From contig NZ_JAFVMH010000007.1 of the NCBI RefSeq assembly GCF_017377735.1, positions 62,001-126,000 of the forward strand: a stretch of DNA of 64,000 nucleotides. The letters run 5' to 3'. The stretch comes from Acetobacter garciniae. GTDB lineage: Bacteria; Pseudomonadota; Alphaproteobacteria; Acetobacterales; Acetobacteraceae. A program made the translations under genes and the position numbers. Each line of letters begins with the position of its first letter. Within the stretch, counting starts at the first letter, position 1. Below are positions 31,311 to 52,790 of the stretch, one piece after another. The notes beneath the pieces are model-generated. The model was not told where the DNA came from. It made no database searches and saw only the letters and a program-made list of their open reading frames with translations.

Positions 31311-31354
31311 AAGCCGGGGGCGCGTCACTTGAGCCGATATGAACAACGCCACTA

Positions 31355-36615: not shown

Positions 36616-37143
36616 GTGCGGAAAAAAGCCCCCGCGAGCAAAACGCAAGCCCGCACTGCCGAGCAGGCGGCCACGCCACGGGCCACCACCGTGCAAGCCG
36701 CAGCGGCGAACAACAGCACCCGCGCCTTATCTTCGGGCAGGCAGGTGGGCAGGCAGCCTGCCTCTGGCGGCAATCCGGGCGTTCCCGCCACGGCACCCAG
36801 CACTGCCGCATCGCGTTCCGAAAACCCGGCGGACGGGGTGGAGAGTGTCGATATCGCCCTTTTGCGCCTGAGCCAGAAAGTGGGCCTGCACGCCACGAAC
36901 TGCACGGCGGCGCTGATCGCCAACCGGCGGGACGACATCATCCGCGAAAGCGCTTCGTTCCTGAAGGCCCTGGAACAGCTCTGGGCGCATGAGACGGTGG
37001 ACCCCGCCGATATCTGGACCGAACTGCTGCGCCGCCTGGAAGTGGCCGAACTGCTGCACCAGCTCAACCAGCCGCCGCACCGCAAGAAACGCAGCGGCAA
37101 GGTACCCAGGCCATGGCGCATTACCACCAGCAAGCTGCCCTGA
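36616..37143 (+). CDS. Degenerate HisE-like (MazG-superfamily) protein
   Basis: A 175-residue protein. The first 75 residues are a low-complexity Ala/Lys/Thr/Ser linker. Residues about 78-145 resemble phosphoribosyl-ATP pyrophosphohydrolase (HisE): ALLRLSQKVGLHATNCTAAL, RRDDIIRESASFLKALEQLW and DPADIWTELLRR follow the KIAEKVGEEAVE, ELVRESADLLYHLLVLW and DVWAELARR blocks of HisE. The metal-binding acidic residues of the first block (GEExxE) are replaced by HATNC, and the second block keeps only RES, so catalysis is unlikely. The GTG at 36616 has an AAGG 6 bases upstream. A basic tail follows. It precedes cvpA-purF by about 150 bp. Confidence 0.65.
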   Translation: MRKKAPASKTQARTAEQAATPRATTVQAAAANNSTRALSSGRQVGRQPASGGNPGVPATAPSTAASRSENPADGVESVDIALLRLSQKVGLHATNCTAALIANRRDDIIRESASFLKALEQLWAHETVDPADIWTELLRRLEVAELLHQLNQPPHRKKRSGKVPRPWRITTSKLP

Positions 37144-37871: not shown

Positions 37872-39428
37872 ATGTTGCTTCATTCCCGTCTGCCCGGAAC
37901 CCCATCTGCAACCCCGCCTGACGCCCTGGCCGGAACACCGGTCGACCCCTCGGCTGAAACGCTGACAGGACTGCCCGCCCCCTTTTCGGCGGATGATGAC
38001 CACCCGCATGAGGAATGCGCCGTATTCGGCGTATGGAACGCGCGCGACGCCGCCGCCCTGACAACGCTTGGCCTGCACGCCCTGCAACATCGCGGGCAGG
38101 AAGCGGCAGGCATTGTCTCCTTCGATACGGAGGAGGAGCGTTTTTGTTCCCACCGTGGGCTGGGCCTGGTCAGCGATGTGTTCAGCGACCCGCGTGTGAT
38201 GGCAAGCCTGCACGGCACGCGCGCCATCGGCCACAACCGCTACGCCACCACCGGAGCCACGCAGCTCCGCAACGTGCAGCCCCTGTTCGCGGAATTCGCC
38301 TTTGGCGGGCTGGCGGTGGCCCATAACGGCAACCTGACCAACAGCGCCATGCTGCGCCGCGAACTGATCCGCCGGGGCTGCCTGTTCCAGTCCACCATGG
38401 ACACGGAAGTGTTCGTCCACCTGATCGCCATTTCGCTTTACGCCACGGTGGAAGACCGGCTGATGGACGCGCTCAAGCGCGTGACCGGGGCCTATTCCCT
38501 GGTCGTGCTGTCGCAGGAAGGGCTGATCGGCGTGCGCGACCCCATGGGCGTGCGCCCGCTGGTGCTTGGCCGCCTGCCCGGTGAAGACGGCAAGGAAGGG
38601 GCCTGGGTTCTGGCGTCGGAAACATGCGGGCTCGATATCATCGGGGCCGAATTCGTGCGCGACGTGGAACCGGGCGAGCTTGTCATCATCAACGACAGCG
38701 GCATTCGCTCCCTCCGCCCGTTCGGGGACACCAAGCCCCATTTCTGCGTGTTCGAATACATCTACTTCGCCCGCCCCGACTCCATTCTGGAAGGGCTGCC
38801 GGTCTATAACGTGCGCAAGCAGATCGGCCGCGAACTGGCCCAGGAAAGCCATGTCGATGCCGATGTGGTGGTGCCGGTGCCCGATTCCGGCGTGCCATCG
38901 GCCATCGGCTATGCCGAAGCCAGCGGCATTCCGTTCGAACTGGGCATTATCCGCAACCACTACGTGGGCCGCACCTTTATCGAACCCACCGACCAGATCC
39001 GCCATCTGGGCGTGAAAATGAAACACTCGCCCAACCGCCCCACGCTGGACGGCAAACGCGTGATCCTGGTGGACGATTCCATCGTGCGCGGCACCACGTC
39101 GCGCAAGATCGTGGACATGGTGCGCGCCGCCGGGGCGACGGAGGTGCATATGCGCATTTCCTCCCCCCCCACCAAGCATTCCTGCTTTTACGGCATCGAC
39201 ACGCCCGAACGCAGCAAGTTGCTGGCCGCCCAGCACGACCTGAAAACCATGGCCGAACTGATCGGCGTGGACAGCCTGGCCTTTATCTCTCTCGACGGGC
39301 TGTACCGCGCCATGGGTCATGAAAGCCGCGAAGGCTGCCGCGAACGCTATTGCGACGCCTGCTTTACCGGCGACTACCCCATCCCCCTGGTCGACCACGA
39401 CGCGGAATACGGCCCCGGCACGGCCTGA
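37872..39428 (+). CDS. purF: Amidophosphoribosyltransferase
   Basis: PurF makes phosphoribosylamine from PRPP and glutamine, the first step of purine synthesis (518 residues). The glutaminase nucleophile is Cys49 in HEECAVFGVW, so a 48-residue propeptide must be removed, much longer than the 11 residues in Bacillus. HNGNLTN and the PRPP loop VILVDDSIVRGTTS are clear. Cysteines in SCFYGID and YCDACFTGDYP match the 4Fe-4S ligands of the Bacillus-type enzyme. The start may lie further downstream, since the first 40 residues are low-complexity and GGAGG is 13 bases from this ATG. Confidence 0.96.
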   Translation: MLLHSRLPGTPSATPPDALAGTPVDPSAETLTGLPAPFSADDDHPHEECAVFGVWNARDAAALTTLGLHALQHRGQEAAGIVSFDTEEERFCSHRGLGLVSDVFSDPRVMASLHGTRAIGHNRYATTGATQLRNVQPLFAEFAFGGLAVAHNGNLTNSAMLRRELIRRGCLFQSTMDTEVFVHLIAISLYATVEDRLMDALKRVTGAYSLVVLSQEGLIGVRDPMGVRPLVLGRLPGEDGKEGAWVLASETCGLDIIGAEFVRDVEPGELVIINDSGIRSLRPFGDTKPHFCVFEYIYFARPDSILEGLPVYNVRKQIGRELAQESHVDADVVVPVPDSGVPSAIGYAEASGIPFELGIIRNHYVGRTFIEPTDQIRHLGVKMKHSPNRPTLDGKRVILVDDSIVRGTTSRKIVDMVRAAGATEVHMRISSPPTKHSCFYGIDTPERSKLLAAQHDLKTMAELIGVDSLAFISLDGLYRAMGHESREGCRERYCDACFTGDYPIPLVDHDAEYGPGTA

Positions 39429-39438
39429 TACCCTCCGG

Positions 39439-39512: not shown

Positions 39513-41129
39513 TTAGCCTTTTTTGCCCTGGCCAAGAATGGTACCAGCGCAGATAAACCCCCAGGTCATGTTGGGGCCGATTGTGGTTCCCGCACCGACC
39601 GCTCGAGTTCCGATTGGATTGGCCATGGCAAGGCCCGCTGCATAAAGCCCTTCCAAAACAGAACCATCCGTACGCAGAACCTGCCCAGATGCGTTGGTAC
39701 GTGCGCCCCCTTTTGTACCCAGAATAGATCTGTTCAGGCGAAAAGCCAGATAAGGCCCTTTTTCGATTTTACCCAGCGTATTATTCGACCCATGAGATTT
39801 GTACGTATCCCATGTGCCTGTGCCACGCCCGAAATCGCGATCAACGCCCTCGTCACAGAATGTGTTGAAGCGTTTGACTGTATCGGCCAATGCCTGGGGG
39901 GATAAACCGATCTTGCCAGCCAGGTCTTCAAGCGTATCGGCCCGAACTGTCCAGCGTTTGTCGTAGGACGCATACCACCGAAAGGGTAATGAACGGCCTA
40001 AAAAGCGTATATCCGCGATCAACCACGCAGGCAGATGAACCGGTTCACCCGTCTCTGGATCACGCTGGTCAAGTATTTCTCCAATATTAAAATCATATTC
40101 GCTCAGAAAACGACGCCCGTCACGATTGACGATAATTGAATGTGGCTCGGCCTGGTACGTGACCGGCAAACCGTGCGACCTTCCTTCGTAACGCGTTGGC
40201 AGACAGGGATAGATATTAGCCTGATCCATGCGCGCCAATAGGGCACCCGCCTCCGACGCCATTTTCTGGCCATCCCCTTCATTCGTGCGGGGGCTGCCTA
40301 TGCGATCAACCGGACCGGGAAAAAATTCCTTGCGCATCATCGTGTCCCATTCGAATCCGCCAGTGGCAAGAACGACGCCCCGGCGCGCAGCAATCACGCG
40401 CTTGCTGCCGTCATGCTCCACTTCAACGGCCGTCACCCGCCCGCTCTTGTCAGACACGAGGCGACATGCCCGTGTCCGAAGCAGGAATGTGCAGCGTAAA
40501 TCCAGGCAACCCTTTATCAACCCTGCCATCAGGGCCGTGCCCTGCCCGCCACTTCGCGTAAGCCAGCGTCGCGCAAGCTGTGGCAACAGCCGCAGCCCTG
40601 TGCGGATTGGATGATGGTACGGATCGTGTCGCACCATTTCATCGTAATCGAAAAGCGTCACCAGGGTGGAGTCACGTAACGAACGCGAAAAACGTCCCAG
40701 TATGCGACGGCTCAGGACTTTCGGGGTGACCATCCGGCCTACAGACTTACCGCCGGGGCTTTCGGGAAACGGATCAGGTTCATCAACCAGTTTGAAACGG
40801 AGCGGAGTATGGGCTTCGACAAATTTCAGCATCTGCGGGGCGGCATAAGCAAAAGCGCGCCAAAGCGGGGCCTCATCACTCTCCCATCCAGCGGGGGAAA
40901 CGGCGTGCAAATAGGTCAGCGCTTCCTCGCTGCTGTCCTGAACACCCGCTTTTGCAGCGATATGGTTGGCTGGCACCCATGTCCCGGCCCCGGACATGGC
41001 ACTTGTGCCCCCTAATCGCGCGGTTTTTTCAACAACGAGAACCTTCAGCCCGCCTTGGGCCGCACGCAGCGCCGCAGTCATGCCAGCGGCACCGGAACCC
41101 AGTACGACGACATCGTACGTTTCATCCAT
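39513..41129 (-). CDS. FAD-dependent dehydrogenase, KstD/fumarate-reductase-like
   Basis: A 538-residue flavoprotein of the fumarate reductase/3-ketosteroid delta-1-dehydrogenase superfamily. The FAD-binding motif is VVLGSGAAGMTAALRAAQGG followed by VVEKTARLGGTSAMSGAG. The C-terminal FAD loop reads YAAGLAMANPIGTRAVGAGT. It probably inserts or removes a C=C bond next to a carbonyl, but the substrate is not evident; steroid chemistry is not implied by neighbours. The ATG at 41129 follows GGAGG closely. It is divergent from the GntR gene, and the shared 16-bp motif lies 25 bp upstream of its start. Confidence 0.88.
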   Translation of the reverse strand: MDETYDVVVLGSGAAGMTAALRAAQGGLKVLVVEKTARLGGTSAMSGAGTWVPANHIAAKAGVQDSSEEALTYLHAVSPAGWESDEAPLWRAFAYAAPQMLKFVEAHTPLRFKLVDEPDPFPESPGGKSVGRMVTPKVLSRRILGRFSRSLRDSTLVTLFDYDEMVRHDPYHHPIRTGLRLLPQLARRWLTRSGGQGTALMAGLIKGCLDLRCTFLLRTRACRLVSDKSGRVTAVEVEHDGSKRVIAARRGVVLATGGFEWDTMMRKEFFPGPVDRIGSPRTNEGDGQKMASEAGALLARMDQANIYPCLPTRYEGRSHGLPVTYQAEPHSIIVNRDGRRFLSEYDFNIGEILDQRDPETGEPVHLPAWLIADIRFLGRSLPFRWYASYDKRWTVRADTLEDLAGKIGLSPQALADTVKRFNTFCDEGVDRDFGRGTGTWDTYKSHGSNNTLGKIEKGPYLAFRLNRSILGTKGGARTNASGQVLRTDGSVLEGLYAAGLAMANPIGTRAVGAGTTIGPNMTWGFICAGTILGQGKKG

Positions 41130-41153
41130 AATAAGGCCTCCACGAGGATATTT

Positions 41154-41169
41154 GTTATATGGTATATCG
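41154..41169. promoter_or_regulatory. Candidate GntR operator, site 1
   Basis: GTTATATGGTATATCG lies 25 bp upstream of the flavoprotein start. It differs by one base from GTTATATGTTATATCG at 47646, upstream of the E1 alpha gene. The core ATAT-N3-ATAT is palindromic. Related AT-rich words (GATATAAG, TTATATCC) occur at about 41300-41326, near the GntR start. Confidence 0.5.
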
Positions 41170-41358
41170 TTTATGCCCATAATCAAAGATGGCATGCATC
41201 CTTTTGATGCCTCTGCCTTAAACGGCGGAAATCAGCGTTTTTAGCCGCGGAAATCCACAATGTTCGACGCGACCGTTTGTGGCAATTGTTCGACTTTGAT
41301 ATAAGAATGCTATACGCAATTATATCCAAGTCACCGTATTATCTTTGGGAATCTTTCT

Positions 41359-42033
41359 ATGTCTGACGCCTTGGCTAGCTTCGTGCCGTTTGAACGGGTG
41401 GAAACACTTGGCACACGCGTGCGCGAACAACTACGTCGAGCCATAATGGTGGGACTTTTCAAACCGGGCGAAAAACTGACATTACGTGCAATCGCATCGG
41501 CACTGGGGGTCAGCCTGACACCGGCGCGGGAGGCTTTGCTCAATCTCGGTGCGGACGGAACACTGGATATCGGCCCCAAGGGGTCCATTCACATCCCCGT
41601 TCTGGACAGGGAGAAGCTGCGTGAACTGCTTAAGGTTCGTCTTTCGCTGGAAAGCCTGGCAGCGCGGGAAGCAATCCACAAACTGACGTCTGAAGATATT
41701 ATCGAGATCAGCGCGATTAACGACCAGCTGATCGAAGCGAATCAAGCCAAGAACTACCGTGAACTGATTGACCTGAACTGGTCTTTTCACTTCACCATAT
41801 ACAACGCGGCGCAAATGCCGTTCCTTGTCCGTATGATCGAAAGCTGCTGGTTGCGCGCGGGATCATACCTGAACGTGATTTATCCCGACTTTGCATCCAG
41901 CGACAAAGGCATCCTTAATCATATTGCAATTCTTCGCGCCATTCGCGAACATGATGCGGATGCGCTTGCCAATGCTCTGATGCATGACATTGAAACATCG
42001 GCAGAAGCGCTTTACGCGCAACTGGAATCCTGA
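41359..42033 (+). CDS. GntR-family regulator with FCD domain
   Basis: A 224-residue FadR-type (FCD) GntR regulator. The winged HTH is at about 10-75 (RVREQLRRAIMVGLFKPGEK, LRAIASALGVSLTPAREAL). The all-helical FCD ligand domain spans about 85-215, with the metal-binding pattern DLNWSFHFTIYNAA and ILNHIAILRAIREHDADAL. Such regulators sense small organic acids and often control the catabolic genes beside them. It is divergent from the flavoprotein gene and lies 3' to 3' against the MFS gene across a dispersed repeat. It is the only regulator in the 39.5-52.7 kb block and so is its likely controller. Confidence 0.93.
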   Translation: MSDALASFVPFERVETLGTRVREQLRRAIMVGLFKPGEKLTLRAIASALGVSLTPAREALLNLGADGTLDIGPKGSIHIPVLDREKLRELLKVRLSLESLAAREAIHKLTSEDIIEISAINDQLIEANQAKNYRELIDLNWSFHFTIYNAAQMPFLVRMIESCWLRAGSYLNVIYPDFASSDKGILNHIAILRAIREHDADALANALMHDIETSAEALYAQLES

Positions 42034-42116
42034 CTCCGGATAACGATCCACACGCCCCAGAACAGGGCCCGAAGACCGTTTCAACTCGATCCACGAAATA
42101 TCAACGCATTCTATAA

Positions 42117-42196
42117 AAATTTTTGGTGAAAATTTTTATAGATCTTGAGGGACCGTCACCTTTTCAAAAAAAAGGCGACACCCAAAAACCTTTATC
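42117..42196. repeat. Dispersed double-hairpin repeat, copy 3
   Basis: It reads TTTTTGGTGAAAATTTTTATAG, then GTCACCTTTTCAAAAAAAAGGCGACACCCAAAAACC in outline. Stem 2 (GTCACCTTTT / AAAAGGCGAC) is conserved; stem 1 is degenerate. The following bases up to about 42232 (TTGATCATGG, TGTTTTGAAACAGT) also resemble those after copy 4. It lies between the convergent gntR-type and MFS genes. Confidence 0.75.
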
Positions 42197-42229
42197 GCTC
42201 TTGATCATGGATTGTTTTGAAACAGTTTC

Positions 42230-43474
42230 TCAGTCCGTCGCTGAAACCAGAAACTGGCGGATGGGCAGGCAGGAAACGATAGCGCCAGCCAGCAGAAACA
42301 GTGCCGCGACACTAAACGCCGCCTGGAAACCGGAATTGGCTGCGACAAGATACCCTGTGGCAACCGGCGCTGTCGCCCCAAGCGCGCTGCTAACCGTTAT
42401 AATCACACCACAGACTGACCCTGTCAGATCATGAACGGGAGTCAGATCGCCGATCAGCGCGACACTTTCCCCGTAAGACACGACAATCATCGCCATCCCG
42501 AAACTGACAATAGCCAAACAGAGGGAAAGATTGTCGATAAAGGGCACGAGCCAGATAACCATGGCACCCGCTAGGGAAAGCGCGACCAGATAGCGCCGTC
42601 CCCCATGCCCAAAATCGCGCAGTCGCCCCAGAAAATAGAAAAGCCGCCCCAGTCCGATGGAAATGAACACGGAAACAAAATAGCAAAGAGAGAAATAATT
42701 ACCCGATTGCGCTGCGGTAATATGGAACGTGTCGATCAGATAAAGCGGCAACCAGGACAGCATGAGAAAGGTGGCGTAATTTGCAACGCATTGCGGAATG
42801 GCGACGGCCCAGAATACCGGCTTTGTGACCACATGCAGCACAGCAAGGCTTGAACCCTTCCGTCGTACGGGCGGTGTCGCCACGCCCGGCTGCCGATAAA
42901 GCAGCAGCCAGATCCCTGCCCAGGCCAACCCGGCCAGCCCCAGAACGAAAAAAGCCATGCGCCACCCCCAGCGGCCGATAAGCCAACTGCCTAGCACGGC
43001 ACCCGCAGCAAGACCTCCCTGAATGCCGCTCATGGAAAGGGTCAGCGCAAAACCGCGTTCGGACGGGGGAGCCCAGTCCTTGACCGCCCTGCTCCCCAAG
43101 CTGAACGTGGGGGATTCACCGGCCCCCAGAATAACGCGCGACAGCAGGAACTGCGGAATGCTGCGCATGACGCCACCCATTACCATCGCAACCGACCACA
43201 AGGCTGCCGAACAGGCCCCCACCCAACGGGGCCCGACACGATCGACAAGCAGTGCTGAGGGAAAATTCAGCAATGAATAAGACCATAGAAAGCTCGACAG
43301 AACCCAGCCTGCCTGCTCCGTACTTAAGCTGAATTCCTGGCATAGTTCGGGCATCGCTACGGACAGCACGGAGCGATCGGCATAATTTGTAAGGCTCATG
43401 ACAAAAAGCAGAAGGTATATGACGTAACGATACTGGCTGGGCCGATCCGCCTGGGGCCTGTCGAGAAGGGACAT
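42230..43474 (-). CDS. MFS transporter, anion:cation symporter type
   Basis: A 414-residue major facilitator protein with 12 predicted helices. The N-terminus YVIYLLLFVMSLTNYADRSV, the loop LLVDRVGPRWVGAC and the WGWRMAFFVLG segment fit the ACS (anion:cation symporter) family, which imports sugar acids, tartrate, phthalate and similar carboxylates. The ATG at 43474 follows GGAGAA. It lies downstream of the DAO oxidase gene on the same strand (57 bp), and the TonB receptor gene is upstream of that. The three would carry a carboxylate-like substrate inward and begin its oxidation. Confidence 0.9.
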   Translation of the reverse strand: MSLLDRPQADRPSQYRYVIYLLLFVMSLTNYADRSVLSVAMPELCQEFSLSTEQAGWVLSSFLWSYSLLNFPSALLVDRVGPRWVGACSAALWSVAMVMGGVMRSIPQFLLSRVILGAGESPTFSLGSRAVKDWAPPSERGFALTLSMSGIQGGLAAGAVLGSWLIGRWGWRMAFFVLGLAGLAWAGIWLLLYRQPGVATPPVRRKGSSLAVLHVVTKPVFWAVAIPQCVANYATFLMLSWLPLYLIDTFHITAAQSGNYFSLCYFVSVFISIGLGRLFYFLGRLRDFGHGGRRYLVALSLAGAMVIWLVPFIDNLSLCLAIVSFGMAMIVVSYGESVALIGDLTPVHDLTGSVCGVIITVSSALGATAPVATGYLVAANSGFQAAFSVAALFLLAGAIVSCLPIRQFLVSATD

Positions 43475-43531
43475 GCGTGGTTCTCCGTGGGTCCGTCAGT
43501 ACCCGGTATAGGAAAAGATCGTGCTATCGCG

Positions 43532-44836
43532 TCATGATTTCTTCATGGCGTCAATACGGTCCTGCACCGCATGCAGCGGATGCATATAGCGACCATACTG
43601 GACACCCATGGCATGAAACGGCACGGTCCGCAGGCCTGTCATCGGCACAGGCAGGTCACGTTCGGCGGTTTTCCCCAACATCAGATCTGCTGTCATGGCA
43701 CCCCACTGCACGCTGAGGGCGACCCCACGCCCCGAATAGATCCCCGAAAAATGAAGTCCCGGCCCAAGGGCCATCATGCGTGGAAAACGGTCTGGCACCA
43801 CGGCAAAAATACCCTCCCAATAGCGGTCGGCCACGGAAAGGGGCAGGCCAGGGAAAATCTCTCGCAGCCTGGCTGCCACGTCACGCAGGCCACGATTGGC
43901 GGCGTCATGCCACAAGGTATGAAGGCCGACCATGGCCAGCCCACCCGTCGAATCATAACGAAAGGCCCGGATAATGCGGCTGGTGTCGGAAACGCCTTCA
44001 CGCCCCGGCAAAACGCGGGCCTGCCAGTTTTCATCGAGCGGGCCGGTGGAGACCTGATAGACATGCAGGGGCACAGAAACTTTCCGGATTCCGGGCCAAA
44101 AGGAGGATTGCGGAATATTTGCGGTTATCAGAACCTGGCGGGCCGTCACCTTTCCCCCCGGGCAGGCCAGTTGCCACCGCCCCCCTTCGCGTCGAATGTC
44201 GGTCACGGCCGAGTCCTGATAAATATGGGCACCGGCTTGTACTGCTGCGCGCGCCATACCTTGGCAAAACGCATAAGGGTTCAGATACCCGCCACTTTTT
44301 GCCCGCCATCCACCGTAAAAGGAGGTCGATCCTATGCAGGCGGACATGGCGTCACGCTCAAGCCAGTCCACATCGTAGCCAAGCTGATTCCATTGTCCGT
44401 AAAATGTGCGCAGTCGCGGTACGACCGATGGCGCATGGGCCGCCTGAACCCAGCCGCGTTGGACAAAATCGCAATCGATTGCGTGCTCACGGATGATATC
44501 CGCCACGTGCTGGGCGGCACGCCCCACCATCCGGTTGAAAATGCCACCGCGATGGCTCCCGAAAATCCGCTCGATTTCCATGGGCGAATTCCGCGAATGA
44601 TGAGGAATGACCTGCCCGTTATTTCTGCCCGAAGCCCCTTGGCCTATACGCCCCGCATCAAGCACAACGACTTTCTCGCCCGTTTTTGCAAAGCGAAGAG
44701 CCGCAGCAAGACCAGTCAAGCCCCCCCCCACCACCACGACATCGGCTTCCAGATCGTCACGCACCTCCGATACGGGGCATTCGGGTTCTTTCGAAATAAG
44801 GCGCCAGTGGAACGTGGCAGGAAGCGCGAACATCAT
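43532..44836 (-). CDS. DAO-type FAD-dependent oxidoreductase
   Basis: A 434-residue FAD oxidase of the DAO family, closest in look to gamma-glutamylputrescine oxidase (PuuB). The dinucleotide motif is VVVGGGLTGLAAALRFAKTG followed by VVVLDAGRIGQGASGRNNGQ, with the DAO signature NPYAFCQGMARAAVQAGAH and the C-terminal HFSGIYSGRGVALSVQWGAM. Such enzymes oxidise secondary amines or amino acids. It lies between the TonB receptor and MFS genes, and all three run on the minus strand with short gaps (76 and 57 bp). Confidence 0.88.
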   Translation of the reverse strand: MMFALPATFHWRLISKEPECPVSEVRDDLEADVVVVGGGLTGLAAALRFAKTGEKVVVLDAGRIGQGASGRNNGQVIPHHSRNSPMEIERIFGSHRGGIFNRMVGRAAQHVADIIREHAIDCDFVQRGWVQAAHAPSVVPRLRTFYGQWNQLGYDVDWLERDAMSACIGSTSFYGGWRAKSGGYLNPYAFCQGMARAAVQAGAHIYQDSAVTDIRREGGRWQLACPGGKVTARQVLITANIPQSSFWPGIRKVSVPLHVYQVSTGPLDENWQARVLPGREGVSDTSRIIRAFRYDSTGGLAMVGLHTLWHDAANRGLRDVAARLREIFPGLPLSVADRYWEGIFAVVPDRFPRMMALGPGLHFSGIYSGRGVALSVQWGAMTADLMLGKTAERDLPVPMTGLRTVPFHAMGVQYGRYMHPLHAVQDRIDAMKKS

Positions 44837-44912
44837 CTTGAAACCTCTTTATCCGAACACCCCCCGCAGGGCGCACGGCCCTGGGGAGACGACAGGCAAA
44901 CAATAAGGAGCG

Positions 44913-47372
44913 TCAGAACTGGGCGGCAATGGATCCAAAGAACATGCGCGGCGCCCCGATCATGAAGGACTGGTAGCTGTAAGCCCCTGTGGAGAGAGAC
45001 AGTGGATTACCCCCCTCACCCATGGTGGAGATCCAGTGGGAGCCAGTCAGGTTGGAAATATTGAGCGACACCTTCAGGTCATTGAGATAGCTGGAAAGGT
45101 TATTGAAATCGTAGCTGGCGCCGAAATTGGACATCCAGTAACCAGGAGCCTTCAGATCTCCGACGTAGCTGAAGTTACGGGCACCTGTATAAGACCCGTC
45201 AATATAGGCTTCCACCTGCTTCCAGTGAAAAGACAGCCGTGCTTTGTACATGAAGCGGGGATAGTTGATAACCTGCTGATTCTTGAGATGGTAGACAATA
45301 CCCTGCTGGGTTATGTTCTGGTCGTAAACAGCGTGATTATAACTGATGCTATTGTACAGAGAGAGGTATTTCGTCGGCCGGATCGTCAAGGCGGCATCGA
45401 CCCCGTTCATGGTCACGCCGCCAACATTCGCGACAGCCGAGACCGGGTTGATGACCGAACCCGCCGTGATCTGCTGCAAGCGATTGAAAAAGTTTGTACG
45501 ATAGGCATAGACACTGGCATCAAGCAGTTTGTCGCTGAAACGGTAACCGATGGCATAGGTCCAGTCCGTTTCCGGCTTCAGCTTCGCCGCCGACGCGTTA
45601 TAGGCCGATTGCAGGACCGAAAAAGGAGACGCGCAAAGCTTGTATCCACATTCGGCGTAAGAATGCACGTTTTCAGAAATGTCTATGAACAGTTCGTGAT
45701 GAGTCAGGAATTTATAATCAAGACCGATATGCGGCAGGAAAGGCTTGGAAATGGTCTGGCCCACACCGCTGGCAATGGGATCGCTCGATCCGTAATAGGC
45801 CGCATCAAGATACCCGTTTCCCACACGTGTCGTATTCAACATCGACTTGAAGCCGAAATGCAGGGAAAGATCCGACGTGACGTGATACGTGTCGCTGAAA
45901 AACCCGGTAAACGTATTGGTATTGTACGTTTGCGAGAAGATTTTTGCAAAGGGGTTGGTGAAATGCCCCAGATCGTTCAGGATACCGCCTGACAGGACGC
46001 CGTTGACCAAAGACGGTTCCGCATAGGCGTACATCGGTGAAACATAATGATTGTTTTCGTACCAGACACCGACGGAAAGATCATTATGTGCGATTTTGTA
46101 CGTCATGGACGATAAAATGCCAAATCGGCGTATTTCAGGCTCTTTCACCAGATCGCTGAGCGGGGATCCTGTCGGTGATCCAAAATAGGGCGAAACCCAT
46201 GTTGTCTGGTTCTGCTGATTATGTCCATACACAGTCGTGACCCAACGCAGGTGATCAGTCAACGCCAGGTTCGCGGTCAAGCCGCCCAGCAAGTCGACAT
46301 TGTTGGTACCGCCGGCGTAATAAGCCGCATCCAGCGGGTCTGACAGACGGGAGATGGACGGGGAATAGGAACCATTCGCAGCATTGACCGCAGTCTGGTA
46401 ACCCGAAAGACGCCCATTATTGTAATAATTCTGGTTGGGCCCGATTTTATCCAGCATTTCGAAGGAATAATCGTCATATGAATGCATATGAAGATCGCTC
46501 CAGTTAAAGAACATGCTGATCTTGCTGGCCTCGCCAACCGGCTGCACCAGTTTGGCGTTGACCTGTTGCAGAAACTGCTGCCCCCACCCTTTCCACAACT
46601 TGGTATCGTTACGCATGTAGGAGGCATAAAATTTCGTGCCACTTTCGTTCAGTTTACCGGAATCGAAGCGAATGAACGTGTGGTACATATTATAGCTGCC
46701 GAATGTCTGGGCAATTTTACCGCCCATCTTATCCTGCGGATCGGACGATACGTATTGAATCGACCCGCCCAGGTTATTTGTCGCCGCGACATCTTCCGCC
46801 CCCGCAGATTGCGACACGTCAAGGCGTGCAACGTTTTCTGACGAAATTGCCTGGAGGGGATTAAGACCATTGTAATTACGATACGTCATTTCCCCCAGCG
46901 GTATGCCATCCAGCGTCATGCCAATTTCCTGCTGCTGGAAACCATGCATATAAAGCTGCGACGTATAGTTATCCAACCCCTGCGCGTCGGCCGACTGGAA
47001 CATGACACCCGGCATTTCACCCAGGACTTTCATGGGATTGGTACCGGGCACTTCCCGCGCAATCATCTGGGCCCCGACGGATAGCATTGTGCCATGGGGT
47101 TTGCGCGTTGTCGCAACCGTCAGTTCTTCCACGTTTTTTGACTTCAGCGCACCGGACGCCCTGGCCCGTGCCGGCGCCGCATCCGGTTTGACACCAACAT
47201 GACTTTTCGCGCTTGCGCGCGATACGGTGCTTTTCTGACCCTGCGGCAAGGCATGCACCTGTGCTGCGGCAGGCTGCGCCGCAACAACGAGGACTCCAAT
47301 GCATGAACCTGCGGCAAGCAACCTTCGCTGCATTGCTCCTGTCATTCCACACATGATCCGCGACATGTTCAT
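44913..47372 (-). CDS. TonB-dependent outer membrane receptor
   Basis: An 819-residue outer-membrane receptor with an N-terminal signal peptide (MQRRLLAAGSCIGVLVVAAQ then PAAAQ). The plug domain (about 85-210) has NPMKVLGEMPGVMFQSADAQ, GMTLDGIPLG and NNLGGSIQYVSSDP. A 22-strand barrel follows, ending in the aromatic terminus FGSIAAQF. The TonB box is probably the VEELTVATTRK region. It imports a large or scarce substrate; there is no siderophore gene nearby, so a carbon source fits the context better. ATG 47372 is used; a TTG two codons earlier is possible. It is divergent from the E1 alpha gene. Confidence 0.93.
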   Translation of the reverse strand: MNMSRIMCGMTGAMQRRLLAAGSCIGVLVVAAQPAAAQVHALPQGQKSTVSRASAKSHVGVKPDAAPARARASGALKSKNVEELTVATTRKPHGTMLSVGAQMIAREVPGTNPMKVLGEMPGVMFQSADAQGLDNYTSQLYMHGFQQQEIGMTLDGIPLGEMTYRNYNGLNPLQAISSENVARLDVSQSAGAEDVAATNNLGGSIQYVSSDPQDKMGGKIAQTFGSYNMYHTFIRFDSGKLNESGTKFYASYMRNDTKLWKGWGQQFLQQVNAKLVQPVGEASKISMFFNWSDLHMHSYDDYSFEMLDKIGPNQNYYNNGRLSGYQTAVNAANGSYSPSISRLSDPLDAAYYAGGTNNVDLLGGLTANLALTDHLRWVTTVYGHNQQNQTTWVSPYFGSPTGSPLSDLVKEPEIRRFGILSSMTYKIAHNDLSVGVWYENNHYVSPMYAYAEPSLVNGVLSGGILNDLGHFTNPFAKIFSQTYNTNTFTGFFSDTYHVTSDLSLHFGFKSMLNTTRVGNGYLDAAYYGSSDPIASGVGQTISKPFLPHIGLDYKFLTHHELFIDISENVHSYAECGYKLCASPFSVLQSAYNASAAKLKPETDWTYAIGYRFSDKLLDASVYAYRTNFFNRLQQITAGSVINPVSAVANVGGVTMNGVDAALTIRPTKYLSLYNSISYNHAVYDQNITQQGIVYHLKNQQVINYPRFMYKARLSFHWKQVEAYIDGSYTGARNFSYVGDLKAPGYWMSNFGASYDFNNLSSYLNDLKVSLNISNLTGSHWISTMGEGGNPLSLSTGAYSYQSFMIGAPRMFFGSIAAQF

Positions 47373-47772
47373 TCCCAATTTCTCAAAGGGTTAAAAAGAA
47401 AACCGGTTCGTACTGCCACTGCCGCGCCTGGCTGCGCTCCGATAGCTCGGGCCTTTCACAACACATACCGCTATAACAGAGAACATATAACGCTCGGAAC
47501 GATGAGATTGTTATTCCGATATGTCAATGAAGTTTTTCTTCGATCGGCGAGAAACCCTATATTTTGTGCTGTAAACAGCGCAGAAACTGCCCATATGCGT
47601 CCCGCTGGACATAAGCCGTGCCGAAGGGACAAACTTTCCTTGACAGTTATATGTTATATCGATTAGCATCCAATATCATCGGCGTATTGGAAGATTGTCG
47701 ACCGTGCCTGCGTCTTGGTCGCTCCCATTCATGGAACTTTCTTCCAATCGCTCAGGTAAAGGATCGACGATA
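47373..47772. other. Divergent promoter region, TonB receptor and E1 alpha
   Basis: A 400-bp, AT-richer region between divergent genes. It contains AACATATAAC (47482-47491), the reverse complement of the first ten bases of the motif at 47646. The two sites could bind the GntR protein in opposite orientation and so control both transcription units. Confidence 0.45.
47646..47661. promoter_or_regulatory. Candidate GntR operator, site 2
   Basis: GTTATATGTTATATCG lies 112 bp upstream of the E1 alpha start and differs by one base from the 41154 site. It is separated from it by 6.5 kb of other genes, so the match is unlikely to be a local duplication. Confidence 0.5.
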
Positions 47773-48741
47773 ATGACTGTCCTATCGGTCGACGAACGCG
47801 TGGTCATGCACAAGCGTATGCTGCTCGTTCGTCTTCTTGAAGAAGAACTCGGTACATTGCACAAAGCGGGAAAGACTCGGGGGCCCATTCATCGCTGCGA
47901 CGGCCAGGAAGCAGTGGGGATCGGTGCCACGGCGGCTCTTCTACCAAGCGATTTCATAACCACCACCCATAGGGGGCATGCCCATTACATTGGCAAGGGT
48001 CTCGATATTTATGGCGTATTCGCGGAAATCATGGGCAAGGCCGACGGATGCTGCGGCGGGCGCGCGGGGCATATGCTCATTGGCGATCTCGAGGCGGGCG
48101 TGATTGGTGGCAACGCCATTGTTGGGGCCAGCATTCCCGCCGCAAGTGGTATTGCACTTTCTGCGCAGATCAAAAAAACCTCTGATGTTTCGATGTGTTT
48201 CTTCGGTGATGGCGCAGCCCAGACAGGGATCTGCCACGAATCCATGAATATTGCCGGGCTGTGGAAACTGCCGGTTGTTTTTGTGCTTGAGCACAACCAG
48301 TACGGTCTGACCGTGCACCAGAGTGTCCAATCCCCCGTGGCCGATCTCAGCCTGCGCGCGCGCGGCTACGCCATGCCCGGCGTGATTGTGGATGGTAACG
48401 ATGTGGCGGCAGTCTATCAGGCCGCGGTAGAGGCCGTCGCCAGAGCCCGGAAAGGCGACGGACCGACCATGATTGAGGCCAAGACCTATCGTGTGGAGGG
48501 CTTTTCCACCTCCGACATGGGCGGCTATCAGGACGCCGAAGAAATTGCCCGATGGAAAAAACGCGATCCCTTGCAGATCAGTTACGACGCGTTACTGCCG
48601 TTGATCGGCGCCCCCGCCCTGCAAGCCATGGCGGATGACGCTGCCCGGGAAATGGCCAGCGTGACACAGAAGGTGCTGGCGGCACCTCTCCCCGAATTCG
48701 AACTTTTCACGCCTTCTTCACCCTATGTCGAGGTTCTGTGA
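47773..48741 (+). CDS. Thiamine-dependent dehydrogenase E1 alpha subunit (AcoA-like)
   Basis: Alpha subunit (322 residues) of a heterotetrameric thiamine-diphosphate E1, in the acetoin/pyruvate dehydrogenase group. The ThDP motif GDGAAQTGICHESMNIAGLW and RGHAHYIGKG are clear, together with GRAGHMLIGD and NQYGLTVH. It probably cleaves a 2-oxo acid or 1,2-diketone-type substrate and passes an acyl group to a lipoyl protein. The phosphorylation loop of mitochondrial PDH is absent. ATG 47773 has AAAGGA upstream. The E1 beta gene follows after 1 bp. Confidence 0.92.
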   Translation: MTVLSVDERVVMHKRMLLVRLLEEELGTLHKAGKTRGPIHRCDGQEAVGIGATAALLPSDFITTTHRGHAHYIGKGLDIYGVFAEIMGKADGCCGGRAGHMLIGDLEAGVIGGNAIVGASIPAASGIALSAQIKKTSDVSMCFFGDGAAQTGICHESMNIAGLWKLPVVFVLEHNQYGLTVHQSVQSPVADLSLRARGYAMPGVIVDGNDVAAVYQAAVEAVARARKGDGPTMIEAKTYRVEGFSTSDMGGYQDAEEIARWKKRDPLQISYDALLPLIGAPALQAMADDAAREMASVTQKVLAAPLPEFELFTPSSPYVEVL

Positions 48742-48742
48742 T

Positions 48743-49717
48743 ATGACCATGATGCGCTACGCAGAAGCTCTGAACCAGGCTTTGCGCGAAGAAATGCACC
48801 GTGATCCATCAGTTTTCCTGTTCGGAGAAGACATTGCCCGCTACGGCGGCGTGTTCAAGGTCACACGGGGGCTTATGGACGAATTCGGCGCATCGCGTGT
48901 GCGCGACACGCCCATTTCGGAACAGACACTTGCGGCAATGGCTGTTACCGCCGCCATGACCGGCACGCGCCCCGTCCTTGAAATCATGTATGCGGACTTC
49001 GTGCCACTTGTCCTGGATGCGCTGATCAACCAGGCGGCGATTTATGAATATCTCTGGCAGGGTGTCCAGATGCCGTTCGTCCTGCGTACGCAAGGCGGCG
49101 GCGGTGCCGGAGCGGGCGCGCAACATTCCAAGGCGCTGGATTCCCTTGTCGCGCATATTCCGGGCATAAAGGTGGTCGCCCCTGTCACCCCGGCCGATGC
49201 CAAAGGCCTGCTGAAGGCCGCAATCCGGGACAGCCAGCCGGTTGTCATGCTCGAACATAAACTTCTGTATAACCAGCGGGCCGAAGTGCCGGACGATCTG
49301 GATTTCACGGTCGAGATCGGCAAGGCGCGCACTGTCGTGGAAGGGCGCGATGTTTCCATTTTTGCAACGTCACGCATGGTGCTCGAAAGCCAGAAAGCCG
49401 CTGAACTGCTGGCCAGGGACGGCATTTCGGCAGAAGTGATCGACCTGCGCACCCTGCGACCGCTGGATCTGCCCGCCATCAAGGCGTCCATCGCCAAGAC
49501 GCATAATGCCGTTGTCGTCAACGAGGGATGGCGTTTTTGCGGCTACGCGGCGGAGCTGTCCGCCACCATCATGGACCATGCCTTTCACGAGCTTGATTCG
49601 CCGGTCGCGCGCGTGACACTGCCCGATATGCCAGTGCCCTACAGTGAACCTCTTGAGACGGCAGTACTGCCGAACGCGGAAAAAATCGCTGCGGCGGCAC
49701 GTCTTACCCTCTCCTGA
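48743..49717 (+). CDS. Thiamine-dependent dehydrogenase E1 beta subunit (AcoB-like)
   Basis: Beta subunit (324 residues) of the same E1. It has the family features MRYAEALNQALREEM, VFLFGEDIARYGGVF, RVRDTPISEQTLAAMAV, EIMYADFVPLVLDALINQAA and PFVLRTQGGGGAGAGAQHS. The C-terminal transketolase domain contains VIDLRTLRPLDLPAI. The ATG at 48743 lies 1 bp after the E1 alpha stop. Sequence alone does not separate acetoin dehydrogenase from other 2-oxo acid dehydrogenases; the downstream hydrolase-type E2 favours an acetoin-like substrate. Confidence 0.92.
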   Translation: MTMMRYAEALNQALREEMHRDPSVFLFGEDIARYGGVFKVTRGLMDEFGASRVRDTPISEQTLAAMAVTAAMTGTRPVLEIMYADFVPLVLDALINQAAIYEYLWQGVQMPFVLRTQGGGGAGAGAQHSKALDSLVAHIPGIKVVAPVTPADAKGLLKAAIRDSQPVVMLEHKLLYNQRAEVPDDLDFTVEIGKARTVVEGRDVSIFATSRMVLESQKAAELLARDGISAEVIDLRTLRPLDLPAIKASIAKTHNAVVVNEGWRFCGYAAELSATIMDHAFHELDSPVARVTLPDMPVPYSEPLETAVLPNAEKIAAAARLTLS

Positions 49718-49737
49718 CCCTGCTGGAATAACAAATC

Positions 49738-51042
49738 ATGTCCGTTACAGAGATAACTGTCACAGGTGCCGGCGGAGAATATATGGAGGCGGTCGTCGTA
49801 CGCGCCTGGCACAAGAAACCGGGCGAGCCCGTGGCACAGGGCGAAACCGTTGTCACGATCGAGACCGCGAAGGCCGCAACCGATATCGAAGCCCCTGCAA
49901 GCGGTGTTCTGGCTGAAATTCGCGTTCCCACGGATGATGAAGTCCCGATCGGCGCGGTTCTGGGCATTATTGCCGATACAATGGCTGAACCGCCGAAACA
50001 GGCCGATGCACCTGCCATCCCTGCCAGCGAACAGCCTCGCTGCCCTGAACCTTCACCCGAAGCCGCTCCTGCTGCCCCGGCCCCGCCATCCTCCCCGCTG
50101 ACATCCGCTCCGGTCCGGGTACCGTGCTCCCCCCTTGCGCGGCGCATCGCCGCCGCCGCCGGGGTGAAACTGGCCGATATTCCCTGTCCTGCCCGCGGTC
50201 GTATCCGGGCGGCGGATGTGCAGGCCTTTCTGGCGACCCGCAAGAACACAAGCGCCGCACCCTTGCCGCCGGGCCAGGCCGGATCGGGGCACATGCCATA
50301 TGCGACCCAACCCGAAGCGGCCCCGCTTGTGGTATTCATTCACGGATTTGGCGGGGACAGGCACGGCTGGAACCCGCTCCTGCGTTGCCTGGACGGCAGT
50401 TTCAGAACACTTACCCTTGAACTGCCCGGCCATGGCAGCAACAAAGCCAGCCCTTCGGCCTATGATATCGGCGGGCTGGCAGATTCTATTGCCGGTCTTC
50501 TCACACAGCAGGACAAAGGGGCGATCCATCTTGTCGGCCACTCGCTCGGCGGGGCGGTCGCGATCCTGCTTGCCGCAGACCCCAGACTGGACGTACGGTC
50601 CCTGACATTGCTGGCCCCTGTCGGACTTGGGCCCGAAATCGACGGGGCGTTCATCAACGGGTTTGTCGCCGCCCGGCAGGCCGCGAGCATCGCCCCGTGG
50701 TTGCGACGCCTGGTGCACGATCCTTCCCTTGTGACGGACGCATTCGTGAACGCCACGGTCAGGGCCCGCACCGACAGTACCGTGTGTGAGATACAGCAGC
50801 ACATCGCGTCGGCTCTTTTCCCCGACGGCACACAGGCAAACGACCTGCGCGCCACGTTGCACAGGCTTGCCGTACCCACCAAGGTCATATGGGGCGAAAG
50901 CGATCGTATCATTCCCGTCCAGCACGCCCGGAACGCTGGCCCCATGGCTGCTGTACATTTCCTGCCCGATACCGGTCATTTGCCGCATCTGGAGACACCC
51001 GCCATGGTGGCGCACCTGCTGCGCCAGATCGTACGGTCATGA
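49738..51042 (+). CDS. Lipoyl-domain/alpha-beta hydrolase fusion (AcoC-like E2)
   Basis: A 434-residue protein fusing three parts: an N-terminal lipoyl domain (about 1-80, lipoylated Lys in IETAKAATDIEAP), a peripheral-subunit-binding domain (about 125-165, CSPLARRIAAAAGVKLADIP) and an alpha/beta hydrolase (about 190-434). The hydrolase has the oxyanion motif HGFGGDRHGW, nucleophile elbow GHSLGG, acid in WGESDRI and His in DTGHLPH. The normal E2 acyltransferase domain is absent. This is the architecture of AcoC of acetoin dehydrogenase systems. No E3 (lipoamide dehydrogenase) gene is in the block, so a housekeeping E3 must serve. The SDR gene overlaps its stop by 4 bases. Confidence 0.92.
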   Translation: MSVTEITVTGAGGEYMEAVVVRAWHKKPGEPVAQGETVVTIETAKAATDIEAPASGVLAEIRVPTDDEVPIGAVLGIIADTMAEPPKQADAPAIPASEQPRCPEPSPEAAPAAPAPPSSPLTSAPVRVPCSPLARRIAAAAGVKLADIPCPARGRIRAADVQAFLATRKNTSAAPLPPGQAGSGHMPYATQPEAAPLVVFIHGFGGDRHGWNPLLRCLDGSFRTLTLELPGHGSNKASPSAYDIGGLADSIAGLLTQQDKGAIHLVGHSLGGAVAILLAADPRLDVRSLTLLAPVGLGPEIDGAFINGFVAARQAASIAPWLRRLVHDPSLVTDAFVNATVRARTDSTVCEIQQHIASALFPDGTQANDLRATLHRLAVPTKVIWGESDRIIPVQHARNAGPMAAVHFLPDTGHLPHLETPAMVAHLLRQIVRS

Positions 51043-51758
51043 CCAGGCCGTTGCGTGTCGTCGTCAGCGGCGCCAGTGCGGGCATAGGCCGGGCAAGCGT
51101 AAGCTGCCTGGCGCGGGCGGGGTTCGACGTGCTGGCCTGCGCACGGGATGAAGCGGCACTCGCAACCCTGGCCAGCGAAACGGGGAGCCGCTACGCCAAA
51201 CTGGACATCAGGGATGCGGCTGCGACAGATACCCTTCTGTGCACAGAACATGCGGACATACTGGTTCACGCAGCCGGCATTCTGGGGGAGGCCGCCGCGC
51301 TGTATGACCTGTCGCCCCAGGCTGTTTCGGACGTGATCGAAACCAACATGACGGGAACGATCAACCTGCTTCGCGCCTGCCTGCCATCCATGCTGGCCCG
51401 GCAGTGCGGAACGATTGTCCTGCTGGGATCGATCTGCGCGGACACACCTGGAACGGGGCCCACGCTCTACGCCGCGACCAAGGCTGCGACACAGGCGATT
51501 GCTGCCAACCTGCGGTATGACCTGCGTGATCGCGATATCCGTGTCAGCGAAATTCGACTGGGGCGGGTGCAAACGGGCATTCACGCCCAGTTGGGCACGC
51601 ATTCGAATTTTTACGACGGCTTCCGTTGCCTGAATGCAGACGATATAGCGGATACGATTCTGCACATCATCCGTGCGCCCGCCCATGTCGATTTCCCGAT
51701 TGTGGAAATCATGCCGACCCGACAGGTGCGCGGCGGCGCCTATTTCGCAAAGGGATGA
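51039..51758 (+). CDS. Short-chain dehydrogenase/reductase
   Basis: A 239-residue classical SDR. The cofactor motif is VVSGASAGIGRASVSCLARA; DILVHAAGIL, the catalytic Ser in VLLGSICADTPG and the YxxxK pair in LYAATKAATQAI are intact. The C-terminus resembles the YdfG-type SDRs (RLGRVQTGIHAQLG, IVEIMPTRQ). It starts at the ATG overlapping the previous stop (ATGA), so it is translationally coupled to the E2-like gene. It may reduce a diketone or oxidise a hydroxyketone, supplying the E1 substrate. Confidence 0.9.
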   Translation: MTRPLRVVVSGASAGIGRASVSCLARAGFDVLACARDEAALATLASETGSRYAKLDIRDAAATDTLLCTEHADILVHAAGILGEAAALYDLSPQAVSDVIETNMTGTINLLRACLPSMLARQCGTIVLLGSICADTPGTGPTLYAATKAATQAIAANLRYDLRDRDIRVSEIRLGRVQTGIHAQLGTHSNFYDGFRCLNADDIADTILHIIRAPAHVDFPIVEIMPTRQVRGGAYFAKG

Positions 51759-51764
51759 CACTTC

Positions 51765-52664
51765 ATGCCATCGATCTATTTCCGCCTGGATGACACACGG
51801 CACGAAATCGAACTCTTTACGGATCGTGCACCCCGTACACTAGGCAAGCTGCTGGCAACACTGCCCGCAAAACTGGATATTCACTGTGCCAAGATCGCCG
51901 GGCAACATATTTTCTGGCACGCACCGCTGGTGGAAGATGCAGAACAGGATGCCGATATCCTGACATTAAAACCCGGCTCCTTTCTTTACTGGCCGGAACG
52001 CCAGTTCCTGGAACTGATCTATGGTGAATTGCAAGCCGAAGATGCGCGTGTCACTCTTCTGGGCCAACTCCGGGGCGATATTGGCTGGCTACGCACCTAT
52101 GGCCAACAGGTTATCGCCCAGCATGGGCACCGGGTTCTGGACGCATGGCTGGAAGCAGACGAAAACACCGCCCTGTCCACGCCCGCGCTGCCTGTTGCCC
52201 TCTCGCTTCAGAAATTGCAGACCGCACGAAAGGCGATCTGGCAGGCCCCGCCCGTCGAATTTATGGAACTGGCCCAACGCGAGGGACTCATGCTCCCCTT
52301 CGGCCCGCTGGCAATGGCGGAAGGAGAGTTTCGTAAACTCCATGAACTCCTTTGGCGTCTCCGTGTCGAGTGGCAGAAGCTATCGCCGGGCGAAGGCACG
52401 ACAATACTCCGCTTCCTTATCGACGCGTTCAACGCCCGGATTGCAGGATTTTGCCATTTGCATGAAAGTGCCGCAGTGCTGGAAGAGGCCAGGCAGCACG
52501 CAGCGGAGATGGATATTTTCCCCCTTCTGCTGGATGAGCTGATCTTGTATTGCGGTCGGGCCGCCGCGTGGCTGGATACCTTTATTCCGTGGAACGATCT
52601 GAACGAAGTGACACGGACCATCCTGACTGCCCGAAAAGCCACGGACCGCAGCCTGCTGTCATGA
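51765..52664 (+). CDS. DUF3830-like protein with helical C-terminal extension
   Basis: A 299-residue protein. Residues about 1-130 resemble the cyclophilin-like DUF3830 family: IYFRLDDTRHEIELFTDRAP, TLPAKLDIHCAKIAGQHIFW, LKPGSFLYWPERQFLELIYG. DUF3830 proteins are of unknown function and are often found in catabolic clusters for cyclic compounds. Residues about 150-299 are helical with no match that I recognise. It is 6 bp behind the SDR gene and ends the operon at a dispersed repeat. A role in handling the pathway substrate is likely but unproven. Confidence 0.65.
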   Translation: MPSIYFRLDDTRHEIELFTDRAPRTLGKLLATLPAKLDIHCAKIAGQHIFWHAPLVEDAEQDADILTLKPGSFLYWPERQFLELIYGELQAEDARVTLLGQLRGDIGWLRTYGQQVIAQHGHRVLDAWLEADENTALSTPALPVALSLQKLQTARKAIWQAPPVEFMELAQREGLMLPFGPLAMAEGEFRKLHELLWRLRVEWQKLSPGEGTTILRFLIDAFNARIAGFCHLHESAAVLEEARQHAAEMDIFPLLLDELILYCGRAAAWLDTFIPWNDLNEVTRTILTARKATDRSLLS

Positions 52665-52701: not shown

Positions 52702-52790
52702 AGATAAAATTTTTTGGCGAAGCTTTTTCCAAAAGGCTTCTGCAAACGTCACCTTTTTGAAAAAAGGCGACACCCAAAAACATTGATCCT
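52702..52790. repeat. Dispersed double-hairpin repeat, copy 4
   Basis: It opens with AGATAAAATTTTTTGGCGAAGC, has stem 1 (AGCTTTTTCCAAAAGGCTT) and stem 2 (GTCACCTTTTTGAAAAAAGGCGAC), and ends CACCCAAAAAC. Similarity to copy 3 continues to about 52820 (TTGATCAATG, TGTTTTGAAACAGTC). It lies between the convergent DUF3830-like and ABC exporter genes. Confidence 0.8.

Follow-up and report, generated by a model that had tools for sequence, protein, structure and literature searches.

A GntR-linked gene block of Acetobacter garciniae with a thiamine diphosphate-lipoyl complex and a protein of predicted McbB fold, probably for the breakdown of a nitrogen-containing compound

Gene content of the block

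We analysed a block of ten genes, between positions 39513 and 52664, in a stretch of 64,000 nucleotides of the Acetobacter garciniae genome (contig NZ_JAFVMH010000007.1, positions 62,001 to 126,000), called here the window. These genes had been proposed from the sequence alone to form one GntR-controlled catabolic pathway around an acetoin-dehydrogenase-like core, a proposal hereafter called the sequence-only reading. All ten open reading frames (ORFs) were found at the expected places in the ORF list, and Pfam and NCBIfam bore out the families given to nine of them, the last protein scoring below the gathering cut-off of Pfam DUF3830 (20.2 vs 26 bits). The block lies, as described, between purF on one side and the gene of an ATP-binding cassette (ABC) exporter on the other. 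It comprises the gene of a KstD-like flavoprotein on the minus strand, a GntR gene on the plus strand, the genes of a major facilitator superfamily (MFS) carrier, a DAO-family oxidase and a TonB-dependent receptor on the minus strand, and then, on the plus strand, those of the E1 alpha (E1a), E1 beta (E1b) and E2 components of a thiamine diphosphate (ThDP)-lipoyl complex, a short-chain dehydrogenase/reductase (SDR) and the 'DUF3830-like' protein. The features are as follows.

39513..41129, minus strand: KstD-like FAD_binding_2 flavoprotein (Pfam FAD_binding_2, 225.7 bits; best PDB relative 7p18, a 3-oxosteroid 1-dehydrogenase)
41154..41173, no strand assigned: GTTATATGGTATATCGTTTA, a candidate GntR operator of the KstD leader (18 of 20 positions identical to the site at 47646)
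41359..42033, plus strand: GntR family regulator of the FCD subfamily (Pfam GntR and FCD)
42230..43474, minus strand: MFS carrier most similar to the anion:cation symporter group, 2A0114 (Pfam MFS_1; TIGR00893, 143.8 bits vs a cut-off of 395)
43532..44836, minus strand: DAO-family flavin-dependent (FAD) amine/imino-acid oxidase (Pfam DAO; best NCBIfam model L-pipecolate oxidase AmaA)
44913..47378, minus strand: TonB-dependent receptor (Pfam plug and barrel)
47646..47665, no strand assigned: putative GntR operator within the E1a promoter, GTTATATGTTATATCGATTA (proposed from its similarity to the KstD-leader site)
47773..48741, plus strand: E1 alpha, ThDP-dependent dehydrogenase (Pfam E1_dh; corrected start 47773)
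48725..49717, plus strand: E1 beta (Pfam Transket_pyr/C)
49738..51042, plus strand: E2 with a lipoyl domain, an E3-binding domain and an alpha/beta hydrolase (Pfam Biotin_lipoyl, E3_binding, Abhydrolase)
51039..51758, plus strand: SDR oxidoreductase (Pfam adh_short; corrected start 51039)
51765..52664, plus strand: 'DUF3830-like' protein of two domains, whose predicted model has the fold of McbB, a Pictet-Spenglerase

The ORF of the KstD-like protein is open to 41195, its likely true start being at 41129 with a GGAGG sequence upstream. As adjacent members of the five-gene plus-strand series overlap or are at most about 20 bases apart, we read them as one operon.

A gene string shared by distant Alphaproteobacteria

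The last gene, hereafter the McbB-fold gene, was used as a marker to collect related loci. No relative was found when genome contigs were scanned with the single protein sequence; an alignment-based scan yielded 90 relatives, and 79 loci were kept, nearly all from Alphaproteobacteria. These loci reach at most 10 kb from the marker gene, so that the counts below are lower bounds and absences can result from truncation; in addition, many come from related species and are not independent. Their ORFs were called by script and grouped by BLAST communities, and the neighbour genes were labelled partly by eye, with Pfam and NCBIfam checks on a subset only.

Both E1 genes are present in 63 of the 79 loci, the E2 gene also in 63, and all three in 60, compared with none of the ten block proteins at E<=1e-20 in eight control loci flanking purF in congeners; the grouping thus exceeds chance. 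Three loci have E1a and E1b without E2 (L027, L036 and L090, the E1b of the latter being a distant paralogue), and the reverse is found in L048, L068 and L086. SDR genes of the same family occur in 55 loci, DAO genes in 45, KstD-like genes in 32 and genes of the window-type GntR in 26, with 42-71% identity where listed. Enzymes of imine type (RidA, two ProC types, cyclodeaminase or aspartate dehydrogenase (AspDH)-like) are encoded in 66. Near-identical sets comprising the DAO, E1a, E1b, E2, SDR, McbB-fold, GntR and KstD genes in one stretch were found in Pararhizobium polonicum (L025) and Brucella gallinifaecis (L035). Seven further loci (L018-L024) harbour the same five-gene string and the GntR gene, all seven together with DadA-like and cyclodeaminase-like genes (families tested for L021). 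The conserved string E1a-E1b-E2-SDR-McbB-fold, frequently accompanied by genes for DAO, a KstD-like protein and GntR, is therefore common to distant Alphaproteobacteria, and the genes thought to form one pathway are indeed kept together rather than scattered.

Searching with E2 instead gave 25 loci. Two of them, the window's own and G057, hold E1b at 79-100% identity and the McbB-fold gene. At the other 23, E1b shows 42-47% identity in the 20 where it was found, and no match to the McbB-fold gene was detected in the roughly 4 kb examined at each. Six loci with relatives of the KstD-like gene, which they hold by construction, were also compared; one of them, L174, has a DAO gene as well. L174 lacks E1-E2 and combines its KstD and DAO genes with those of a proline racemase and a GntR, so that the two flavoproteins can occur without the complex; this context again hints at a cyclic imino acid.

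The one-pathway proposal is supported for a co-conserved, GntR-linked catabolic block from which two of the ten genes have to be set apart. No homologue of the MFS carrier or of the receptor was found in any of the 79 loci at E<=1e-15. The receptor has at least nine copies in its own genome at E<=1e-60, nine of 29 candidates having been scored, with the best paralogue at 66% identity, and its family is present in 23 of 100 genomes of the same bacterial family. It thus looks like a member of a paralogous family of this lineage, with both receptor and carrier apparently recruited locally. Importers vary among the relatives: amino-acid-type ABC importers are annotated in plasmid loci and were read by eye in others, and some loci harbour tripartite ATP-independent periplasmic (TRAP) or other carriers, also read by eye.

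The pairing of this ThDP-lipoyl complex subfamily with a Pictet-Spenglerase-fold protein thus recurs in 60 of 79 loci. We found no paper on 'DUF3830' or on this gene combination in the open-licence literature, a coverage outside of which most subscription journals lie. Knowledge of the substrate would reveal together what about ten enzyme families do.

A large rhizobial version of the module, in Neorhizobium sp. NCHU2750 (L011), shares with the window the KstD, SDR, E1a, E1b, E2, McbB-fold, GntR and DAO genes. It differs by its GntR and by additional genes for a B12-domain protein, a cupin, an AspDH-like protein, a hydrolase, a NIPSNAP protein, 3HCDH-like and ProC-like proteins and liv ABC components. 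The B12-domain protein (L011:6726-8465), encoded in 34 of the 79 loci, is a single chain of about 579 residues in which Pfam matches the B12-binding domain only (DVHEHG motif). Its model, made from the L058 sequence, has a fold of adenosylcobalamin-dependent mutase type, with methylmalonyl-CoA mutase, glutamate mutase and ornithine aminomutase among its matches; the protein is apparently an uncharacterised mutase of the large version of the module.

Other features of the relatives deserve mention. L030 (11292-11864) and 17 further loci code for a conserved protein of ~190 residues with repeated WHxHxxxPxC-like motifs, for which Pfam returned no family in the two members tested; DAO genes are present in 15 of these 18 loci, and RidA genes also in 15. 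In some alphaproteobacteria, namely L014 (9228-10787; its contig is as long as that of L069), L015 and L089, the McbB-fold gene has as its neighbour, in place of E1-E2, a gene similar to the N-terminal portion of ThDP decarboxylases (Pfam only for L014). Lastly, L052, in a record titled Oceanobacillus sp. HTM 045 and labelled Bacillota, harbours a module of alphaproteobacterial type (tree) together with what was read by eye as a TRAP importer, for which contamination, mislabelling or transfer are possible explanations.

Acquisition of the block

The block had been described as less GC-rich than its neighbours and possibly acquired. Its ten genes have GC contents at third codon positions of 0.56-0.70, compared with 0.76 for cvpA and 0.81 for purF upstream and 0.74 for the ABC exporter downstream. 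The last gene was matched in only 6 of 289 sampled alphaproteobacterial genomes (its own, three strong and two weak matches). Within the family, it was found in one of 200 genomes, which is its own, and in none of the three other genomes of the genus in that sample. The DNA of all eight congeners examined ceases to resemble the window at the purF stop codon (39428-39429), and a short repeat in one congener is the sole match in the 5-11 kb examined beyond it. In a tree built from 23 of 27 picked loci, four having been lost to a length filter, the window E1b belongs to a set of seven sequences with five from Hyphomicrobiales and one from a betaproteobacterial metagenome-assembled genome (support 95/95), its immediate fork being weaker (86/90). 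Base composition, patchy occurrence, the end of similarity at purF and the grouping with Hyphomicrobiales all support acquisition. The block thus appears to have been acquired horizontally, with a gene set common to soil and marine relatives.

The acquired stretch may extend beyond 52664. The ABC exporter gene directly after the block (52823-54802) has at most 41% identity among the matches listed for 20 other genomes of the genus, and a short-chain fatty acid transporter gene follows downstream (55312-56724). An interspersed repeat with a GGCGACACCCAAAAACNTT core is found at four places of the window (42168-42207, 52708-52784, 55219-55295 and 6865-6883). Three of its copies are in or beside the block, of which two have matches in one congener as well.

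Operator-like sites and the GntR regulator

Both the helix-turn-helix and the FCD domains are present in the block regulator. GTTATATGTTATATCGATTA lies between TTGACA at 47640 and TAGCAT ending at 47669, the two elements of the highest-scoring promoter-like match in the block. This site is identical at 18 of 20 positions to GTTATATGGTATATCGTTTA in the KstD leader, a level reached by none of 1000 dinucleotide shuffles of both regions (largest value 17); the KstD region used for this test was chosen after a pattern search had pointed to the site. An initial look for a motif common to the GntR and E1a promoters had found none from 41196 onwards, a range just outside of which the KstD leader lies.

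In related loci, the motif TGTTATAACA was found upstream of E1a with 9 or 10 of 10 positions matched in 17 of 22 loci with the window-type GntR, compared with 0 of 38 loci with another GntR and one of seven with neither. Of 1300 windows of 350 bases drawn at random from the loci with the window-type GntR, 29 contain it, although some of these windows may overlap real sites. The motif was derived from 12 of the 22 loci and found in seven of the other ten. The shared GntR response, approached here by sequence comparison, is thus supported by the pair of similar operator-like sites that precede E1a and KstD, consistent with one regulon controlled by the block GntR through putative operators. These sites provide a ready handle for testing the pathway.

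Proposed pathway and substrate class

We propose, with a probability of about 0.6, that horizontal transfer brought in this block as a catabolic module under GntR control, whose substrate is an amine carrying a carboxylate group or a (cyclic) imino acid; more generally, the gene set probably breaks down a nitrogen-containing compound. The reactions are deduced from the genes present, the fold predicted for the last protein, the subfamilies and the operator-like sites. The substrate would be imported by the local TonB receptor and MFS carrier, and the DAO-family enzyme would oxidise a C-N bond to an imine or a carbonyl. The KstD-like flavoprotein would introduce or remove a C=C bond in an intermediate of acidic nature, and the SDR would oxidise a hydroxyl group. 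The McbB-fold protein might handle an imine or iminium intermediate, forming or breaking a C-C bond. Finally, E1-E2, with a housekeeping E3, would convert the resulting 2-oxoacid, 1,2-diketone or acyloin to an acyl-CoA for central metabolism. Cleavage of a 1,2-dicarbonyl by E1-E2, as suggested in the sequence-only reading, is possible; a 2-oxoacid would be an equally good E1 substrate.

Sequence comparisons support a shift of the substrate class towards amines or imino acids. The nearest NCBIfam model of the block DAO is L-pipecolate oxidase AmaA, whose cut-off it does not reach (236.8 bits vs 600). Moreover, neighbours in relatives resemble ProC and cyclodeaminase/pyrroline-2-carboxylate reductase, below the cut-offs of these families, proline racemases are encoded in L027 and L174, and some loci have the amino-acid-type ABC importers mentioned above.

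Several observations weigh against this proposal. Proline racemase is found in only one of the 79 loci, plus L174, which itself has no E1-E2, and RidA, ProC, cyclodeaminase and racemase are all absent from the ten window genes. As the importers vary, some being of TRAP or other types, compounds other than amino acids may serve as substrate in some loci. The module is not indivisible either: the McbB-fold gene occurs without E1b in 16 of 79 loci, several of which are on short contigs, and KstD is separable, since orthologues at 55-60% identity occur in six other genomes of the family devoid of the marker gene and core. As to regulation, the window operator fits the consensus of the relatives at only 8 of 10 positions, and the KstD-leader site at fewer. 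Three of the seven additional loci with the motif, L019, L020 and L023, are close relatives of source loci, being from Ancylobacter like two of the 12. Lastly, L025 and L035, which have the most similar gene sets and in which E1a follows DAO, have no such site before E1a.

The E1-E2 complex

The foremost alternative, doubtful in our view, is that an ordinary or a D-amino acid is degraded by way of a 2-oxoacid dehydrogenase: the DAO enzyme would deaminate the substrate and E1-E2 would decarboxylate the 2-oxoacid, the McbB-fold and KstD proteins being accessory. The best NCBIfam model for E1 alpha is indeed that of pyruvate dehydrogenase (PDH) E1 alpha, although below its cut-off (274.5 bits vs 393.85). 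Some relatives have DadA-like, RidA and Asp/Glu-racemase neighbours, others amino-acid-type ABC importers, and the McbB-fold gene also adjoins a TPP_enzyme_N gene in L014. Nevertheless, this pathway leaves the joint retention of the KstD-like, SDR and McbB-fold genes unexplained, and an E2 of hydrolase type is characteristic of enzymes that cleave acyloins rather than of 2-oxoacid dehydrogenases.

That E2 brings the complex closer to acetoin-cleaving AcoABC systems. It passes the cut-off of the NCBIfam acetoin-dehydrogenase E2 model (NF011457, 327.4 vs 307), and its lipoyl Lys and Ser-Asp-His set are kept in all seven sequences compared. It is also the best match of Paracoccus AcoC in its own genome (34%), the runner-up being a hydrolase at C1:87060 (33%) aligned over the hydrolase part only. 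The E1 subunits tell another story: E1a has 62-68% identity to the E1 alpha subunits of four module members and 38-39% to two AcoA-type proteins; similarly, E1b is 79-87% identical to four module E1 beta subunits, 46% to two AcoB-type proteins and 47% to the genome's own PDH, and it is separate from AcoB in the tree. The E1-E2 core is thus, by these comparisons, a subfamily apart from AcoABC, so that the label 'acetoin-dehydrogenase-like' is apt for E2 and leaves the E1 subunits outside the AcoA/AcoB cluster. Because two lipoamide dehydrogenases scoring above their cut-off are encoded elsewhere in the genome, E3 is presumably a shared housekeeping component.

The aco operon of Paracoccus denitrificans (L123) resembles the block in its E1 alpha, E1 beta, alpha/beta-hydrolase E2 and adjacent SDR genes. 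It differs in having a NAD-kinase-type gene, a sigma-54 regulator and a butanediol dehydrogenase where the window has DAO, KstD, McbB-fold and GntR genes, and the window E2 carries an E3-binding domain, a segment not found in the two AcoC-type comparators. E1-E2-SDR might still be an acetoin/2,3-butanediol system with unrelated DAO, KstD and receptor neighbours, as the E2 score, the THRGH loop that E1 alpha shares with the two AcoA-type proteins, and the SDR and butanediol dehydrogenase of the Paracoccus operon would suggest. Given the E1 subfamilies, the DAO, KstD, GntR and McbB-fold genes that travel with E1-E2, and the lack of acoX, AcoR and butanediol dehydrogenase among the ten block genes in Pfam and NCBIfam, all three being present in L123, we consider this unlikely, and a plain acetoin system was dropped.

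The McbB-fold protein

The predicted model of the last protein has a two-domain fold, a cyclophilin-like domain followed by a helical domain, in which McbB is aligned over 274 residues (Foldseek/VIA). Besides McbB and KslB, the 50 structure-search matches shown were chiefly cyclophilin-like proteins superposed on the first domain. DUF3830 was matched at E<=0.01 by 13 of 36 members of the family alignment, the window protein included. The label 'DUF3830-like' thus conveys a likeness below the cut-off, whereas the whole predicted fold is that of McbB. McbB and KslB are Pictet-Spenglerases of alkaloid biosynthesis with which the window protein shares its two-domain fold. It differs from them by its catabolic-looking gene context, by its low identity to McbB (19%) and by the lack of a significant profile match: in a search with the sequence profile of the family, McbB was not listed up to E 10, and the KslB entry 9k0a appeared only weakly, at E 1.4. 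If the model is correct, an enzyme shape of alkaloid-synthesis type beside breakdown genes would be unusual.

A more specific and improbable idea, prompted by the model, is that the protein is a catabolic Pictet-Spenglerase. The module would then break down Pictet-Spengler-type cyclic imino acids, such as tetrahydro-beta-carboline-3-carboxylates or spinacine- and cucumopine-like condensates, with the iminium C-C bond cleaved or remodelled, DAO, imine reductases and racemases acting at the imino-acid end and E1-E2 turning the carbonyl fragment into acyl-CoA. A fold represented here, among named solved structures, by the alkaloid-synthesis proteins McbB and KslB would thereby gain a function in degradation; identifying the substrate would show whether the fold also serves breakdown. 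A cucumopine-catabolic region has been described on pAtAg67 (PMC10745273). Cucumopine catabolism proper was dropped: tblastn found the McbB-fold gene in seven plasmid records, and none of the four whose titles were examined named Ti or Ri. Mycosporine and calystegine catabolism, considered from the literature, were dropped as well, as was rhizopine catabolism.

The KstD-like flavoprotein

The nearest solved relatives of the KstD-like protein are 3-ketosteroid dehydrogenases (239 bits), with which it shares membership of the FAD_binding_2 family. Tyr119, Tyr318 and Tyr487 are the catalytic tyrosines of these enzymes. Their equivalents in the window protein are Pro, Tyr and Ala, with a GTRAVGAGTT sequence in place of the missing tyrosines. 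In the subfamily alignment, restricted to 24 rows longer than 480 residues after 10 truncated ones were dropped, Pro is found at the first position in 23 of 24 rows and Ala at the third in 21 of 22 ungapped rows. The name 'KstD-like' is thus justified by the family, and the enzyme itself is probably not a steroid enzyme. As an arginine adjoins the replaced tyrosine positions, its substrate may be acidic. That the block degrades a steroid-like or cyclohexanone compound, with a ketosteroid dehydrogenase acting first, is highly improbable and was dropped despite these PDB relatives and a match to 4-oxocyclohexanecarboxylate dehydrogenase, since two of the three active-site tyrosines are replaced throughout most of the subfamily, the NCBIfam cut-offs are missed (387.5 vs 788, and 309.5 vs 1000 for the latter model), and no oxygenase or ring-cleavage family is found among the ten genes with Pfam and NCBIfam.

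Another low-GC stretch of the window

A second stretch of low GC content (about 0.44-0.53) is present at 31000-36860. In seven of the eight congeners, the DNA matches on both its sides but not within it. Read by eye, its genes include those of a hybrid sensor kinase and a response regulator.

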